Origin: an uncultured Paraprevotella sp.
Lineage (GTDB): Bacteria > Bacteroidota > Bacteroidia > Bacteroidales > Bacteroidaceae
DNA: 64,000 nucleotides
Direction: 5' to 3'
Assembly (NCBI GenBank): GCA_944321345.1
Contig: CALUKY010000009.1
Location: 17,283 to 81,282 of the forward strand
Below, piece by piece: positions 46,330 to 63,982 of this stretch (the first letter of the stretch is position 1; every line of letters starts with the position of its first letter). The notes under the pieces were generated by a model. It did no database searches, was not told where the DNA came from, and worked only from the letters and a program-made list of their open reading frames with translations. Made by a program: the position numbers and the translations under genes.

Positions 46330-46881
46330 TTATTTATCACCGAAGTAACGGTTGTACAAGCCCAGGAATCCACGGCCGTGACGAGCCTCGTCCTTAGCCA
46401 TTTCGTGAACTGTATCGTGGATAGCATCCAGGTTCTGAGCCTTAGCCATCTTAGCGATTTCCATCTTGCCAGAGCAAGCGCCGCTCTCAGCTTCCATTCT
46501 CTTCTTCAGGTTAGTCTTGGTATCCCATACCATGTCACCCAGCAACTCGCAGAAACGGGCAGCGTGATCAGCCTCCTCAAAAGCATAACGCTTGAAAGCC
46601 TCAGCGATTTCCGGATAACCTTCACGGTCAGCCTGACGGCTCATAGCCAGATACATACCTACCTCAGTGCACTCGCCTTCGAAGTTAGCGATCAGACCCT
46701 TCTTGATTTCCGGATCAACATCCTTAGCGATACCGATAACGTGCTCGGTAACAAAAGTCAGTTCTGTATCTACCAACTCCTTGAACTTGTCGGCAGGAGC
46801 CTTGCACTGTGGGCACTGTGCCGGAGCTTCATTACCTTCGTGAACATAACCGCAAACGGTACAAACAAATTTCTTAGCCAT
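46330..46881 (-). CDS. Reverse rubrerythrin (rubredoxin domain first, ferritin-like domain second)
   Basis: A 183-residue cytoplasmic NADH-dependent peroxide reductase. An N-terminal short rubredoxin has Cys7, Cys10, Cys23 and Cys26 in the rubrerythrin-type spacing CxxC-x12-CxxC. A four-helix ferritin-like domain follows with di-iron ligands in [21 protein letters not shown] and [10 protein letters not shown]. Domain order is the reverse of classic rubrerythrin. It detoxifies hydrogen peroxide in anaerobes. It lies 53 nt downstream of a PerR-like repressor, a common pairing. The rubredoxin domain is very like the one fused to NqrC at 60,563-61,417. Confidence 0.95.
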
Positions 46882-46934: not shown

Positions 46935-47357
46935 TCAAGATCTTTTCTTTTTACATTCAGAGCAATAGCCCTTGTAATATACATGAGCTTCGGTTATCTC
47001 AAAGCCACTCTCCTTGGTAGGACATCCCACATACATCTGCTCTTCGGTAAGCGGAAAATCAAAAACCTTGCCGCAATCCTTGCAGAGGAAGTGAACATGT
47101 GGGGTAACCACTCCGTCAAAGCAAACCTTGCGCTCATCAATAGTCAGCATCTGGGCAGCTCCTTGCTCTGCAAACAACTTCAAAGTGTTGTATACCGTTG
47201 TCTTTGACAAGGTGGGAATCTCCTGATGCAGAGCCACATATACGTCATCGACAGTAGGATGTGTGTGGTGCTTCTGAAGATAATCCATGATGGCGATTCG
47301 CTGAACGGACGGATGAATTCCATACTCTAATAATGTATTTAACGCACTATCCTTCAT
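46935..47357 (-). CDS. PerR-like Fur-family peroxide-sensing repressor
   Basis: A 140-residue repressor. A winged helix domain comes first (about 1-80; HPSVQRIAIMDYLQKHHTHPTV and SKTTVYNTLKLFAEQG, each in part). The dimerisation domain has HVHFLCKDCGKV and a C-terminal CSEC, the two CxxC pairs that bind the structural zinc. Fur-family repressors use iron or manganese; PerR senses peroxide by oxidation of its iron-site histidines. Identity as PerR (not Fur or Zur) is inferred from the rubrerythrin gene downstream and the palindrome at its promoter. Confidence 0.88.
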   Translation of the reverse strand: MKDSALNTLLEYGIHPSVQRIAIMDYLQKHHTHPTVDDVYVALHQEIPTLSKTTVYNTLKLFAEQGAAQMLTIDERKVCFDGVVTPHVHFLCKDCGKVFDFPLTEEQMYVGCPTKESGFEITEAHVYYKGYCSECKKKRS

Positions 47358-57963: not shown

Positions 57964-59238
57964 CTATCCACCGAAGTTATCGTACATGATGCTTTCCGGT
58001 TCAACACCCAGACTGTCGAGCATGCTAACCACAGCTTTTGACATCGGGCCAGGACCACACATGTAGTATTCGATATCTTCCGGAGCCTCGTGATTCTTCA
58101 GGTATGTTTCGTAAATTACCTGATGAACGAATCCCGGAGTATACTTCACGCCAGCTGCATCGGCTGCAGGATCCGGACGGTCGAGAGCCAAGTGGAAGCT
58201 GAAGTTCGGGAAATCCTTCTCCAACTGCAGGAAGTCTTCCAGATAGAATACCTCGTTCAGTGCACGGGCACCGTAGAAGTAACTCATCTTACGATCTGTT
58301 GTCTTCAAAGTCTTGGTCATGTGCATGATCTGAGCACGCAGAGGAGCCATACCGGCACCACCACCTACCCACATCATCTCTTTCTTAGAGTTGAAGATTG
58401 GGTGGAAGTCTCCGTAAGGACCGCTCATGATCACCTTGTCACCCGGTTTCAGGGTAAAGATGTATGAAGAAGCGATACCCGGCATGACATCCATGAAGCC
58501 AGGACCCTGATCTTTCGGCTTGAACGGAGGAGTAGCGATACGTACGGTCAGCATGAAACGGTCACCCTCGGCAGGATAGTTGGCCATAGAGTAAGCACGG
58601 ATGGTTTCTTCCGTGTTCTCACACTTCAAACCGAACAGACCGAACTTCTCCCATGCCGGCAGATATTCCGGACCAATCAGATCCTTGTCAATATCCTTGT
58701 TGTAGTCCATCTTGAACTTAGGAATCTTGATCTGAGCGTATGAACCCGGAATGAAGTCCATGTGGGCACCCTCAGGCAACTGCACGATGAACTCCTTGAT
58801 AAAAGTAGCCACGTTCTTGTTGCTGATAACGGTACACTCGTATTCCTTAACACCCATTACAGATTCCGGAACAACGATTTCCATATCGCTCTTCACCTTG
58901 CACTGGCATCCCAGACGCCAGTTATCCTTGATCTGCTTACGGGTAAACTGACCCTTTTCTGAATCCAGAATCTCACCGCCTCCGGCTGGAACCTGGCACT
59001 TGCACTGACCGCAAGAACCCTTACCACCACAGGCAGAAGGCAAGTAAATTCCCTGCTCAGCCAAAGAAGACAGCAAGCTGCCACCCTGAGCTACAGAAAC
59101 AGTCTTGTCACCATTGATCTTGATGTTTACATTTCCGCTTGGTGACAAATATTTCTTTGCTACGAGCAAGATAATCACCAACAGCAGGATGATCACGAGG
59201 AATACTCCAATGCTCGTAAAAATAAAATTCATATCCAT
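57964..59238 (-). CDS. nqrF: Na+-translocating NADH:quinone reductase subunit F
   Basis: The NADH-oxidising entry subunit of the sodium pump, 424 residues. An N-terminal membrane helix (about 5-27) is followed by a [2Fe-2S] ferredoxin domain, with cysteines in ACGGKGSCGQCKCQ and a fourth in RLGCQCK. The FAD domain has RAYSMANYP, and the NAD(P)H domain has GGGAGMAPLRAQ and the C-terminal MYDNFGG. Electrons pass from FAD to 2Fe-2S and on to the other subunits. It is the last gene of the operon; an ATG at 59232 is an alternative start. Confidence 0.95.
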   Translation of the reverse strand: MDMNFIFTSIGVFLVIILLLVIILLVAKKYLSPSGNVNIKINGDKTVSVAQGGSLLSSLAEQGIYLPSACGGKGSCGQCKCQVPAGGGEILDSEKGQFTRKQIKDNWRLGCQCKVKSDMEIVVPESVMGVKEYECTVISNKNVATFIKEFIVQLPEGAHMDFIPGSYAQIKIPKFKMDYNKDIDKDLIGPEYLPAWEKFGLFGLKCENTEETIRAYSMANYPAEGDRFMLTVRIATPPFKPKDQGPGFMDVMPGIASSYIFTLKPGDKVIMSGPYGDFHPIFNSKKEMMWVGGGAGMAPLRAQIMHMTKTLKTTDRKMSYFYGARALNEVFYLEDFLQLEKDFPNFSFHLALDRPDPAADAAGVKYTPGFVHQVIYETYLKNHEAPEDIEYYMCGPGPMSKAVVSMLDSLGVEPESIMYDNFGG

Positions 59239-59256: not shown

Positions 59257-59883
59257 TTAAATTTTCAAACCTGAGAAACACATAAATGCCATGGCCATCA
59301 AACCTACAGTGATGAAGGTGATACCCAATCCCTGCAACGGCTTCGGCACGTTGGTATAAGCCATTTTCTCGCGGATAGCCGCCAAAGAAACGATAGCCAG
59401 AGTCCAACCGATACCAGAACCCAATGCGTAAGCCAGAGAATCCCATACATTACCGATAGCCTGAGAGCTGGTAGCCGGATCCATCTGGATTCTCTGCTGC
59501 ATGAACAGAGAAGCACCCATGATGGCACAGTTTACAGCAATCAACGGAAGGAAAATACCCAATGCTGAGTAAAGTGACGGAGAGAAACGCTCTACAACCA
59601 TCTCAACCAGCTGCACAATACCGGCAATCACAGCGATAAACAGGATGAATGCCAGATATGTGAGGTCCTGACCCAAGATTCCATCTTCTGCCAGAACTTT
59701 AGTCTGCAACAAATAGTCCACCGGAACGGTTACCAGCAACACGAAGGTTACGGCGACACCCAGTCCGAGTGAAGTCTTTACATTCTTAGATACGGCCAAG
59801 TATGAACACATACCCAAGAAGAAAGCGAAAATCATATTGTCCACAAAAATTGAACGGACAAACAAGCTTAATAAATGTTCCAT
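59257..59883 (-). CDS. nqrE: Na+-translocating NADH:quinone reductase subunit E
   Basis: A 208-residue integral membrane subunit with six hydrophobic helices. Matching blocks are [24 protein letters not shown] (in part), [14 protein letters not shown] (about 114-127, with the Cys that helps bind the intramembrane 2Fe-2S centre shared with NqrD) and [17 protein letters not shown]. It forms the antiparallel pair with NqrD in the sodium-translocating core. It lies 28 nt after nqrD and 18 nt before nqrF. Confidence 0.95.
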
Positions 59884-59911: not shown

Positions 59912-60547
59912 TTACTTTTTCTTCTTGTCAGGATCGTTGATCGCACGCTGTGCCCAGATGAAACATCCTAGCAGAATCAGAGCCATAGCCGGCATGGTCA
60001 TCATACCGTTGTTCATATAACCCATTTCATAGAATCCGTCAGGAATGATCTGGAAACCAAGCAGGCTACCGTTACCCAGGAACTCACGTACAGCACCTAC
60101 GATAACCAATACCATGGCATAACCCAATCCGTTACCGATACCATCCAGGAAACTTTCCCAAGGACCGTTCATCATGGCAAATGCCTCCAGACGTCCCATC
60201 AGGATACAGTTAGTGATGATCAGACCTACGTATACAGAAAGCTGAACACTGACATCATAAGCAAAAGCCTTCAGGATCATACTTACGATAGTTACCAGAG
60301 CAGCAACCACTACCAACTGAACGATGATACGGATTCGGTTAGGAATGGTGTTACGGATCAAAGAAATGATCAGGTTTGAGAAGGCAGTAATCACTGTTAC
60401 TGAAAGTCCCATCACAATTGCAGGCATCAACTGAGAAGTTACAGCCAAAGCCGAACAGATACCCAACACCTGTACTGCTACCGGGTTATTGAGGTTGATC
60501 GGTGATGAGAATACCTCTCTATTCTCTTTTGAAAATAATTTTCCCAT
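59912..60547 (-). CDS. nqrD: Na+-translocating NADH:quinone reductase subunit D
   Basis: A 211-residue integral membrane subunit with the paired motifs LGICSALAVTSQLMPA (about 25-40) and GLIITNCILMGRLEAFAM, the second carrying the conserved Cys. The start is the ATG at 60547, preceded by GGAGG; the in-frame TTG at 60562 would start before that Shine-Dalgarno site and is rejected. It partners NqrE in the membrane core. It begins 15 nt after nqrC. Confidence 0.95.
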   Translation of the reverse strand: MGKLFSKENREVFSSPINLNNPVAVQVLGICSALAVTSQLMPAIVMGLSVTVITAFSNLIISLIRNTIPNRIRIIVQLVVVAALVTIVSMILKAFAYDVSVQLSVYVGLIITNCILMGRLEAFAMMNGPWESFLDGIGNGLGYAMVLVIVGAVREFLGNGSLLGFQIIPDGFYEMGYMNNGMMTMPAMALILLGCFIWAQRAINDPDKKKK

Positions 60548-60562
60548 TTTTTCTACCTCCAA

Positions 60563-61417
60563 TTATTCATTAGTTGTTAAAAAAGTCATGTAACGTGACA
60601 AGCACTCGTGAAGCATGTTGTTCACACCATCACAAGTCAAGGTTGCACCGGTGATGGCATCGCAACGGCTGTCATCGGTCAGTCCTTCAACAAACTTGCC
60701 TTTCTTAGCCACACTGATCAATACAGCGCTCTTGTCAGCATTCAGCACCTTCTTGCCCTCGAACTGCTTCTGGAACTTCTCATACTCGGTGATGATGGCA
60801 CCCAAACCGGCAGTCTCACCCTTGTGAGAGAAGTAAACACCGTAAATCGTGTTCTTGTCGGCATTTACTGCCACATAACCCCAGATAGCATCCCACAGAC
60901 CCTTACCGGTCAAAGGCATTACATACTTGGTTTCACCGTTTACATTGCAAACATAAAGAGGCAGGTTCTCGGCGCTGATTGCCTTGTCTTCCACAGCAAA
61001 TCCATCCTTATCCTTGCCTGCTCCATCCTTAACCACTTCACCGCTGGAAGTAATGATCTGGTCTGAAACAATCACTTCGTTATATTTGCTTTCTACATCA
61101 GCCTTATCCAGATCGCGGATATTCAGGGCAGCCAGAATCTGGCTTTTCTTGTCAATACGTACATTGGCCATTGACTGTGGCTCCAATGCCTTGGAAACAA
61201 AGGCCAGCAAGAATGCCACGATAATTACCACTACTGAAGCATAGATAATGGTATAGGTATTGCTGCTGGTGTTGATACCTTTCTTCTTGGGCTGTCCACC
61301 TTCAGTAATCTCTTCGAACTCTGAAGCCGGAGCCTGGCAAATGGGACATTTGGCCGGAGCTGCATCACCTTCGTGAATGTAGCCGCATACTTTACACTTA
61401 AATTTCTTTGTAGCCAT
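60563..61417 (-). CDS. nqrC: Na+-translocating NADH:quinone reductase subunit C with an extra N-terminal rubredoxin domain
   Basis: A 284-residue protein. Residues 1-40 are a rubredoxin-like iron/zinc ribbon with Cys8, Cys11, Cys24 and Cys27 (CxxC-x12-CxxC, CGYIHEG, CPICQAP). A Gly/Lys linker and a transmembrane helix follow (about 55-77). The rest is a normal periplasmic NqrC FMN domain, with covalent FMN expected on the Thr of TGATLT. NqrC is normally about 235-260 residues, so the 45-residue N-terminal extension is extra. It faces the cytoplasm, whereas FMN-C is periplasmic. The frame, start and spacing to nqrB (10 nt) are clean, so this is not an error of annotation. Confidence 0.93.
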   Translation of the reverse strand: MATKKFKCKVCGYIHEGDAAPAKCPICQAPASEFEEITEGGQPKKKGINTSSNTYTIIYASVVVIIVAFLLAFVSKALEPQSMANVRIDKKSQILAALNIRDLDKADVESKYNEVIVSDQIITSSGEVVKDGAGKDKDGFAVEDKAISAENLPLYVCNVNGETKYVMPLTGKGLWDAIWGYVAVNADKNTIYGVYFSHKGETAGLGAIITEYEKFQKQFEGKKVLNADKSAVLISVAKKGKFVEGLTDDSRCDAITGATLTCDGVNNMLHECLSRYMTFLTTNE

Positions 61418-61427
61418 ATTCCTTTAA

Positions 61428-62603
61428 TTATTTTTTAATTGCACGTTTAGCTCGCTTGTCAATGTTGTTCTGAACAACGATGTAGTCAATCAGCGGAGCA
61501 AATACATTCATCAACAAAATAGCTAGCATCATACCTTCTGGATAACCCGGATTCAAGACACGGATAATCACTGCCATGGCACCGATCAGGAATCCATAGT
61601 AGTACTTACCGGTTTCGGTACGGGCAGAGGTTACAGGGTCGGTAGCCATAAATACGGCACCGAAGCAGAAGCCACCCAGAATGAGGTGCTGATACCAAGG
61701 CATAGCAGCAACAGCGTTGCCTTCCGGACCGAAGTTAGAGAAGATCAGTCCCATTACGGCACCACCGACAAATACGCTGATCATGGTCTTCCAGCTGGCA
61801 ACACCGGTCCACAACAGAATGATGGCACCGATACCGATGGCAATCACACTGGTTTCACCGATAGAACCCGGAATCAGACCGATAACCTGATCACACATAG
61901 AAGTGGTGATGGCAGCACCTGTTGCAGCCTCTCCCAGAGGAGTAGCCATCGTGAAGGCATCCGGCAGATTGTAACCCAAACCGCAGATGCTTTCTGTAGC
62001 CACCCAGCAAGTGTCACCACTCATTACTGTAGGATAAGCGAAGAACAGGAAAGCACGGGTAATCAAAGCGACATTGAAGATGTTCATACCGGTACCACCG
62101 AAGATCTCCTTAGCGAAGATTACGGCAAAAGCACAGGCAATGGCAATCACCCACAGAGGGCAGCCTACCGGCACAATCAGAGGAACCAACATACCGGTTA
62201 CCAGATAACCTTCGTGAATTTCCTCGTTCTTCCACTGAGCCACGATGAACTCAATACCCAAACCTACGATATAAGATACCAGAATCTTAGGCAATACGGC
62301 CAGGAAACCATAACCGAACATTTCCCAGAAACCGGTTTCGGCCAGTTTACCGGCAGCCAGAGCATTCTGATAACCGATGTTGTACATACCGAACAACAGA
62401 GCCGGAATCAAAGCAATCACAACAAACGACATGATACGCTTGCTGTCAATAGCGTCGTGTACATTTACTCCACACTTTGAAGTTGTATTGGGCACGAACA
62501 GGAATGTTTCGAAGCCATCGAATACAGAACGGAAAGCGTGAAGCTTGCCTCCCTCTTCAAAGTTCGGCTTTATCTTATCAAGATATTTTCTTAACGCGTT
62601 CAT
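61428..62603 (-). CDS. nqrB: Na+-translocating NADH:quinone reductase subunit B
   Basis: A 391-residue membrane subunit with about ten helices. The covalent FMN attachment motif GSIGETS (about residue 215-225, Thr) and the block MATDPVTSARTETGKYYYG are present. NqrB binds riboflavin and carries the main sodium channel and the ubiquinone/menaquinone site. It starts 29 nt after nqrA and ends 10 nt before nqrC. Confidence 0.95.
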   Translation of the reverse strand: MNALRKYLDKIKPNFEEGGKLHAFRSVFDGFETFLFVPNTTSKCGVNVHDAIDSKRIMSFVVIALIPALLFGMYNIGYQNALAAGKLAETGFWEMFGYGFLAVLPKILVSYIVGLGIEFIVAQWKNEEIHEGYLVTGMLVPLIVPVGCPLWVIAIACAFAVIFAKEIFGGTGMNIFNVALITRAFLFFAYPTVMSGDTCWVATESICGLGYNLPDAFTMATPLGEAATGAAITTSMCDQVIGLIPGSIGETSVIAIGIGAIILLWTGVASWKTMISVFVGGAVMGLIFSNFGPEGNAVAAMPWYQHLILGGFCFGAVFMATDPVTSARTETGKYYYGFLIGAMAVIIRVLNPGYPEGMMLAILLMNVFAPLIDYIVVQNNIDKRAKRAIKK

Positions 62604-62632: not shown

Positions 62633-63982
62633 TTAAGCCATTTCTTTGCGAAGCATATCCAAACCTTCGCGTACGATGCGCTGCAACTCCAATTTAGAAG
62701 AGTCAACAAACTCACACAAAGCGAAGTCTTCAGGAGCAACCTCATAGATACCCAATGCTTCCATGCGATCAATATCACCGGTAATGATAGCCTTAACCAG
62801 CTGTTCCGGGAAGATATCCATCGGGAATACACGATCATACTCATTGCTCATGATCATATGACGCTCGCCACCCTTCACACGGGCATCCAGAGTATATTCT
62901 TTCTTACCGCACAACCAGCTGAAATAAGAACGGCTGGCAGAGAACTGGTCAAAACGAGGCATAATCCAACCCAGCATCTCGTGTACATCATTACCTTCCG
63001 GAATGACGTTAACCTCGGTTGAGTGAGCACCCAGGAATCCGTTGGCAGAAATCTTCTGACCGGTCATCACGTTTCCGTCGATAATACGCACGGTCTTGTC
63101 GGTAGCGATACGGCCGTTAAGCAAAGTAGTCAGCTGCTGACCAACCTTGACTTGCGCATAAGCCGGAGCCTTCACTTCGGAACCTGCCAAAGCAATGGTA
63201 CGGGTCAGATCTACCTTACCGGTATTGATCAGACGACCGATGAAGATCACCTCTTCCGCTCCGATAGTCCAAACCACTTCACCCTTGTTGATCGGGTCAA
63301 CATGGTTGATCTGAACACCTACATTACCAGCAGGTGCCGGACCGTCGAATACATTTACGGTAACATTCTTGGCCTGAGTCAAAGCGGCATTCTTCTGCTT
63401 GCTGCTCACACCAAGATAAGTCTTGGCAATCTTTGACAATGCATCCAGACCTGTCTGGAAATCGTTTTCCTGACCAGTCAGTACATACTCAAAGTCGGCA
63501 GACAACGGCATTGAATTGAATGCAGACACGAAGATAGCCTTCGGAGTGACATCAGGAGTAGCCACCACGTCATAAGGACGCTGCTTGAAGAAAGCAAAGA
63601 GTCCGGACTCCAACAGGAGTTCCTTTACTGCATTGCCGTCCATAGACGCTACCTGCTTCTTGCCGAAGTCAACAGCCTGCTGCTCTGCATCAGCCTTTAC
63701 CTGAACGCTTAACACTTTACGACGTTCGCCACGCTCAACCAATGACACGGTTCCGCTCACCGGTGAAACGAACTTCACTGTAGGATGTGCCTTGTCTACA
63801 AACAAGGCTTCGCCGGCCTTCACGACATCACCCTCCTTGACAACCACTTTCGGCTTCATTCCTACGAAACTGTCCGGAACCAAAGCATAGGTTCCCGGAC
63901 AAGCTACCTGAAATTTTTCCTTGGCGGCTTTGCCCTTGAGATTGACATCAAGACCCTTACGTAATTTAATTACACTTGCCAT
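62633..63982 (-). CDS. nqrA: Na+-translocating NADH:quinone reductase subunit A
   Basis: A 449-residue peripheral subunit, no membrane helices. Family blocks are IKLRKGLDVNLKGKA (start), YALVPDSFVGMKPKVVVKEGDVV (in part), VSPVSGTVSLVERGERRKV, the central KTYLGVSSKQKN region and NEYDRVFPMDIFPEQL near the C-terminus. It is the first gene of the nqr operon. The promoter would lie beyond or at the window edge, since only 18 nt remain upstream. Confidence 0.95.
   Translation of the reverse strand: MASVIKLRKGLDVNLKGKAAKEKFQVACPGTYALVPDSFVGMKPKVVVKEGDVVKAGEALFVDKAHPTVKFVSPVSGTVSLVERGERRKVLSVQVKADAEQQAVDFGKKQVASMDGNAVKELLLESGLFAFFKQRPYDVVATPDVTPKAIFVSAFNSMPLSADFEYVLTGQENDFQTGLDALSKIAKTYLGVSSKQKNAALTQAKNVTVNVFDGPAPAGNVGVQINHVDPINKGEVVWTIGAEEVIFIGRLINTGKVDLTRTIALAGSEVKAPAYAQVKVGQQLTTLLNGRIATDKTVRIIDGNVMTGQKISANGFLGAHSTEVNVIPEGNDVHEMLGWIMPRFDQFSASRSYFSWLCGKKEYTLDARVKGGERHMIMSNEYDRVFPMDIFPEQLVKAIITGDIDRMEALGIYEVAPEDFALCEFVDSSKLELQRIVREGLDMLRKEMA

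Follow-up and report, generated by a model that had tools for sequence, protein, structure and literature searches.

The window, the whole 64,000-nucleotide stretch of DNA analysed here, carries a complete nqrA-F operon on the reverse strand, in which nqrC (60563..61417, (-)) sits between nqrB and nqrD. The products of nqrA (62633..63982, (-)), nqrB (61428..62603, (-)), nqrD (59912..60547, (-)), nqrE (59257..59883, (-)) and nqrF (57964..59238, (-)) matched TIGR01936 with 510 bits, TIGR01937 with 464 bits, TIGR01939 with 289 bits, TIGR01940 with 276 bits and TIGR01941 with 555 bits, respectively. nqrB ends 10 bases upstream of nqrC, and the ATG at 60547 was assumed to be the start of nqrD, the open reading frame of which is listed from a TTG at 60562. 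NqrF comprises a helix, a 2Fe-2S ferredoxin-like domain and an FAD/NADH domain. The nqrC gene starts with ATG and encodes 284 amino acids, which form a short-spaced rubredoxin domain (residues 1-39; 61301..61417, (-)), a flexible linker (residues 40-52; 61262..61300, (-)), a single N-terminal transmembrane helix (approximately residues 53-80; 61178..61261, (-)) and an FMN domain. The FMN_bind region (residues 173-273; 60599..60901, (-)) matched PF04205 with 62 bits and contains the predicted flavinylation motif TGATLT at residues 256-261, of which G257, T259 and T261 were invariant among 17 NqrC sequences. The whole protein scored 188.5 bits with the NCBIfam model TIGR01938 for nqrC (cut-off 144) and below the cut-offs of the narrower PRK05346 models. 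The operon position, the membrane helix, the FMN domain and the TGATLT motif are shared with NqrC of V. cholerae, P. bryantii and P. distasonis. Unlike the NqrC of the window, the NqrC chain in the solved V. cholerae structure lacks an N-terminal rubredoxin, and the two proteins can be aligned from residue 57 of the window NqrC onward.

Residues 6-35 of NqrC matched the Pfam family RUBY_RBDX (PF21349), the rubredoxin-like domain of rubrerythrins, with 3e-15 and 55.8 bits (cut-off 26.5). This match and the translation of the open reading frame bear out an earlier description of the segment as two CxxC pairs (C8/C11 and C24/C27) separated by 12 residues, within CGYIHEG and CPICQAP. The canonical rubredoxin family PF00301, in which the Cys pairs are approximately 30 residues apart, was absent from the Pfam matches of NqrC, as was PF02915, the di-iron four-helix domain that would have marked a rubrerythrin. 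When the first 40 residues were compared with the PDB using phmmer, all 36 distinct sequences matched were rubredoxins, rubrerythrins or nigerythrin. The AlphaFold2 model of NqrC (mean pLDDT 83.6, with 17 sequences in the alignment) showed a small N-terminal domain with block means of 79-90, a disordered linker with pLDDT <50 at residues 40-49, a long helix at residues 53-97 and the FMN domain. In Foldseek searches, the body of the model matched NqrC structures (3lwx, E 9e-18), and the N-terminal part gave modest matches to 4tpu (0.8 A over 37 columns, E 0.009), 1b71 (E 0.02) and 1ryt (E 0.04). The structure 3lwx is the periplasmic domain of P. distasonis NqrC, which was solved without the N-terminal part and aligns from approximately residue 85 only. 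No in-frame ATG, GTG or TTG, the three start codons considered, occurs in nqrC from codon 2 to codon 62. Since the modelled helix begins at residue 53, any membrane-anchored NqrC should contain the domain. The metal of the module is probably iron in an FeCys4 site.

A reverse rubrerythrin (46330..46881, (-)) is encoded in the same window and matched PF21349 at its N-terminus (54.8 bits) and PF02915 (65.5 bits). It carries CGYVHEG and CPQCKAP in the same places as NqrC, as had been claimed. Like the reverse rubrerythrins revRbr1/2 of C. difficile, it has the N-terminal CxxC-x12-CxxC domain followed by a di-iron helical domain in place of the membrane helix and FMN domain of NqrC. Directly upstream of its gene lies an open reading frame (46935-47357, (-)) for a 140-amino-acid regulator that resembles Fur/PerR on reading its sequence. 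A separate canonical rubredoxin is also present in the genome from which the window derives. The earlier note had called the two rubredoxin domains of the window almost identical; this holds for the layout and the Pfam family, but the surface residues differ systematically. The residues of 49 distinct fusion domains were set beside those of 30 reverse rubrerythrin domains, likewise distinct and taken from the loci fetched, two unclassifiable short-rubredoxin matches being omitted. Position 7 is K/R in 41/49 fusions versus I/V in 28/30 reverse rubrerythrins, position 9 is K in 42/49 versus T/S in 30/30, position 33 is E/D in 39/49 versus K/R in 30/30, and position 35 is E in 40/49 versus K/N/R in 26/30. 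At least three of the four charges K/R7, K/R9, E/D33 and E/D35 were present in 38 of 46 fusion domains (the other three of the 49 came from loci outside the protein table) and in none of the 30 reverse rubrerythrins. Among the same 46 domains, 39 scored better with a far NqrC (core identity <50%) than with any reverse rubrerythrin, two tied, and five (L006, L056, L066, L070 and L103) scored nearer to reverse rubrerythrins. All 30 reverse rubrerythrin domains were nearest to each other, or 20 of the 30 when near copies (<=8 differences) were left out. Given these set differences and the charge signature, the NqrC domain is in the main a specialised module rather than a fresh copy of the neighbouring rubrerythrin. 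The nearest-match comparison thus mostly, though not wholly, rejects capture from each genome's own rubrerythrin, and drift or separate captures may lie behind the exceptional domains. The distinct signature of the NqrC domain makes for a weak tie to the rubrerythrin of the window itself and hints at a dedicated partner.

The domain is strongly conserved. The four Cys were kept in 49/49 distinct fusion domains, the Cys pattern itself having served as the collection filter, and were invariant in the 18 sequences of alignment A2. Other rubredoxin-type residues were also retained (Y13 in 48/49, F34 in 47/49, and P21 and P25 in 49/49). Across 12 same-genus sequences, the domain had the lowest dN/dS (0.029; helix 0.048, FMN domain 0.066), with synonymous sites near saturation and the linker not computable. 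In one fusion (L079:5995-6219) the domain has kept the four Cys and lost the CGY, HEG and AP motifs; this is possibly a degenerating or re-purposed copy, perhaps one that binds zinc.

NqrC was recovered from 15 of the 18 genomes of the genus, each time with the fusion (one NqrC being cut by a contig end); the remaining three genomes, which are 78-87% complete, yielded none. At least 74 of the 301 genomes of the window's family, across 11 genus codes, carry the fusion, as counted by eye from the matches listed, down to approximately 3e-62, that run from residue 1-5. Of 295 Bacteroidales genomes drawn evenly, six (G000, G018, G041, G105, G229 and G289), belonging to four family codes, had the full N-terminal module with rubredoxin and helix in one frame, at scores of 122-142 bits; the other matches with E <=1e-12 reached at most 66 bits and for the most part covered just one of the two, either rubredoxin or helix. 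Of 395 genomes drawn across the phylum, the full module was found in G000 and G105, both inside the order, and in none outside it; six of the listed genomes came from the order, and the 331 unlisted genomes had no match at E 1e-6. The genus of G105 is presumed to be Parabacteroides because the G105 NqrC falls among loci so named in the NqrC tree. Of its 38 genomes, 30 have the fusion, five have a plain NqrC and three, which are 75-81% complete, have no match to the NqrC helix. Among the best 80 named loci of the scan, 22 were fusions. Named carriers include Paraprevotella sp., Segatella paludivivens DSM 17968, Bacteroides sp. Marseille-P3684, Parabacteroides distasonis An897 (L078), P. bouchesdurhonensis, P. 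massiliensis, Tidjanibacter, Paludibacteraceae and a Dysgonamonadaceae bacterium, and named non-carriers include Bacteroides finegoldii, B. cutis, Phocaeicola plebeius and Hoylesella saccharolytica. Because the fusion recurs in so many other genomes, it is due neither to chance nor to an assembly error. Some fusion proteins are also extended at the C-terminus, either by an Ala/Glu/Pro-rich segment (L056, L057 and L059) or by a Cys-rich tail, CCKEGGCEEG (L058 and L060).

The spread of the domain was mapped on a tree, as the earlier note had proposed. Of the 157 loci with a core, two were omitted (L046, which is cut, and L159, which is short); 147 distinct sequences were reduced to 124 by thinning at 88% identity, 35 of them fusions, and the columns of the domain itself were excluded. 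The resulting NqrC tree requires 17 switches between fusion and plain NqrC, no fewer than 10 of them forced by starred branches, compared with an average of 31 after shuffling. In L110, the sister of the fusion L058, the protein begins with MATKK-INTSSN, in which the start of the domain is joined straight to the start of the membrane part; this is an apparent clean loss of the domain. Since the domain has been gained or lost frequently, NQR works without it. Distances between domains correlated with distances between cores (r 0.415; none of 2000 permutations was as high), and the correlation was weak among far pairs (r 0.12), so that both an ancient origin with losses and a transfer of the module are possible. 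On a tree of the domain itself (34 columns), the NqrC label needs five changes, of which at least two are forced by starred branches, and more than one origin is therefore possible.

The co-occurrence of the fusion with genes for candidate electron acceptors was examined in 80 chosen genomes (42 carriers and 38 non-carriers), all at least 90% complete; G394, G409, G479, G482, G496, G566 and G503 were left out of this set. To count as a full reverse rubrerythrin, a match with P0002 needed E <1e-70 (the one in G059, which is partial and covers residues 138-183, was scored as absent), and flavodiiron proteins were recognised by PF19583, which we take to be their marker. Because the 80 genomes are related by descent, the Fisher tests are rough. 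No significant tie to the fusion was observed for the full reverse rubrerythrin (39/42 carriers versus 29/38 non-carriers, p 0.059 with kinship ignored), the flavodiiron protein (37/42 versus 35/38, p 0.72), the canonical rubredoxin (32/42 versus 34/38, p 0.15) or RnfC (32/42 versus 24/38, p 0.23). In the same genomes, the canonical rubredoxin and the flavodiiron protein, used as a positive control, were tied to each other with p 1e-7. Three carriers (G341, G379 and G410) have neither a full reverse rubrerythrin nor a flavodiiron protein. A flavodiiron protein without a canonical rubredoxin occurred in six of the 80 genomes, five carriers and one non-carrier, which is at most suggestive (p 0.20). 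The RnfC counts led us to reject the fusion as a replacement for Rnf.

No canonical rubredoxin was matched in 33 of the 38 presumed Parabacteroides genomes, including 27 of the 30 carriers and all five with plain NqrC. In this genus the fused domain may thus frequently be among a small number of rubredoxin centres. As a general rule, a role as stand-in for a missing rubredoxin was rejected, both from the counts of canonical rubredoxin in the 80 genomes and because the presumed Parabacteroides genomes with plain NqrC also have none (0/5), so that a genome lacking rubredoxin can do without the domain. In all four g196 genomes examined, which have a plain NqrC, the canonical rubredoxin gene adjoins the reverse rubrerythrin gene (G333 C75, G389 C33, G404 C4 and G418 C53), a hint that the two proteins may work together in this family. 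In G041, which carries the fusion, a free-standing short-spaced rubredoxin of 67 amino acids (L197, G041:C7:72313-72426) is encoded immediately upstream of a gene for reverse rubrerythrin.

In the 1197 columns of NqrB, NqrD, NqrE and NqrF, the best site co-varying with the fusion had an uncorrected p of 3.9e-5, and in comparisons of independent tree pairs, which numbered at most six and gave little power, nothing came near significance. Six carriers share K75 in NqrF, a residue characteristic of loci named Parabacteroides. The mean net charge of the NqrF ferredoxin region was +1.40 in 20 carriers and +0.69 in 55 others.

The likely position of the module can be deduced from the V. cholerae enzyme. 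According to two papers, the NqrC helix touches helix 3 of NqrD and helix 1 of NqrF (PMC9325719), and NqrF is anchored by an N-terminal helix with its ferredoxin-like domain in the cytoplasm (PMC10643135). Since the NqrC helix packs on the NqrF helix, the module should lie in the cytoplasm beside the mobile ferredoxin domain of NqrF, and the cytoplasmic placement proposed earlier is thus supported by the known topology of NQR.

The potential of the module can be estimated in a similar way. In PMC7482061 and PMC6033852, the short rubredoxins of classical rubrerythrin, nigerythrin and desulforubrerythrin are given potentials of +185 to +281 mV and that of FdpF -110 mV; the C. difficile reverse rubrerythrins are at +10 and -10 mV (PMC7482061). 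The high potential of D. vulgaris rubrerythrin is ascribed to two residues close to the Cys pairs, an Asn and a His (PMC6033852), which in our mapping would correspond to positions 10 and 29 of the fusion domain. Most of the classical domains fetched have N and H at these positions, whereas the fusion domains have V10 in 43/49 and A29 in 41/49, so that a potential of roughly -110 to +10 mV is expected. With such a potential, NADH-reduced NqrF could reduce the rubredoxin and the rubredoxin could reduce a reverse rubrerythrin, and forward feeding of the pump would be unlikely.

The best reading of these data, which we hold tentatively and at somewhat less than an even chance, is that the domain is a side outlet from NADH-reduced NqrF through the NqrC rubredoxin to soluble acceptors such as reverse rubrerythrin. 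Electrons from NADH would pass through the FAD to the 2Fe-2S cluster of NqrF. On the pump branch they would continue to NqrD/E and along the FMN chain to menaquinone, with pumping of Na+, and on the side branch they would pass to the rubredoxin, which a short flexible linker attaches to the NqrC helix at its cytoplasmic end. When peroxide or O2 enters, the rubredoxin would hand on single electrons, to reverse rubrerythrin in the first place and to the flavodiiron protein in the second. This reading draws on location, domain type, conservation and energetics and not on genetics. The earlier suggestion that the pump gives electrons to a peroxide reductase is therefore plausible as the leading interpretation, but the gene tie falls short of significance and three carriers have neither acceptor.

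The module might instead be an internal part of the pump, serving as a relay between the 2Fe-2S clusters of NqrF and of NqrD/E or as a redox or iron switch that tilts the NqrC helix, and so altering the pump rate without any soluble acceptor. The position beside NqrF and the absence of a significant tie between acceptor genes and the fusion would suit such a part, as would the V. cholerae enzyme, in the cycle of which the helix of NqrC is tilted by 12 degrees and that of NqrF by 7, both moving approximately 4 A towards the cytoplasm (PMC10643135), and in which a flexible NqrF is separated from NqrD/E by a long gap (PMC9325719). We nevertheless consider it rather unlikely, since the solved V. 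cholerae NqrC chain lacks the extension, the fusion occurs in only six of 295 Bacteroidales genomes, compensating sites in NqrB, NqrD, NqrE and NqrF were not found, and the likely potential appears too high for forward relay to NqrD/E. That a zinc or iron Cys4 site merely aids the folding, insertion or docking of NqrC, with no electron transfer, is unlikely in our view. Strong conservation alone requires no redox work, L079 keeps its Cys and not the surrounding motifs, and the domain comes and goes on the tree; however, most fusions retain rubredoxin-type residues around the site beyond the Cys, the PDB matches are all of the rubredoxin, rubrerythrin or nigerythrin kinds, and the apparent clean loss in L110 suggests that NqrC needs no such help.

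Very improbable, finally, is the alternate electron entry that had been raised for this domain, by which soluble low-potential donors would feed NQR through the rubredoxin. In its favour, the domain should lie on the cytoplasmic side, and these anaerobes make use of ferredoxins. The upstream centres of NqrF and NqrD/E, however, have potentials below the short-rubredoxin range. Potentials of -110 to +281 mV, as given in PMC6033852 and PMC7482061, are too oxidising for a donor to NqrF or NqrD/E, and Rnf, being about as frequent in carriers as in non-carriers, is not replaced by the fusion.

Two known systems resemble the proposed side outlet. The closest in logic is FdpF, the class F flavodiiron protein of C. 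difficile, in which a short-spaced rubredoxin forms part of an NADH-driven flavin chain (PMC6033852); FdpF differs in being a single chain that includes NROR and flavodiiron parts of its own, and it is not a subunit of a pump. In B. thetaiotaomicron, NADH electrons are described as passing via NROR and soluble rubredoxin, with Roo, to O2 or peroxide reductases (PMC5210497), the same job as proposed here, but through separate soluble proteins in place of a tether to a sodium pump. We infer that a rubredoxin in an NADH-oxidising pump would fit the gap in rubredoxin electron supply left by the B. thetaiotaomicron papers. The word rubredoxin does not occur in a paper modelling the P. bryantii NQR. 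The statement that the fusion had not been described agrees with our full-text search, in which no published description of an NqrC-rubredoxin fusion was found, most subscription papers, as well as InterPro and similar domain databases, lying outside the text searched; automated databases very probably list the architecture.

NQR is usually treated as a linear chain of six subunits. A further reading, which we regard as doubtful though worth stating, is that in Paraprevotella, Parabacteroides and their kin the pump is branched, with NqrF doubling as NADH:rubredoxin reductase while the NqrC helix, as it moves, gates electrons between menaquinone, for energy, and the tethered rubredoxin, for defence by way of peroxide- and oxygen-reducing enzymes. 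If this is true, a conserved rubredoxin tethered beside the entry cluster makes NQR a branched enzyme in some gut anaerobes, and the pump would offer such bacteria a rubredoxin-type source of electrons besides NROR.
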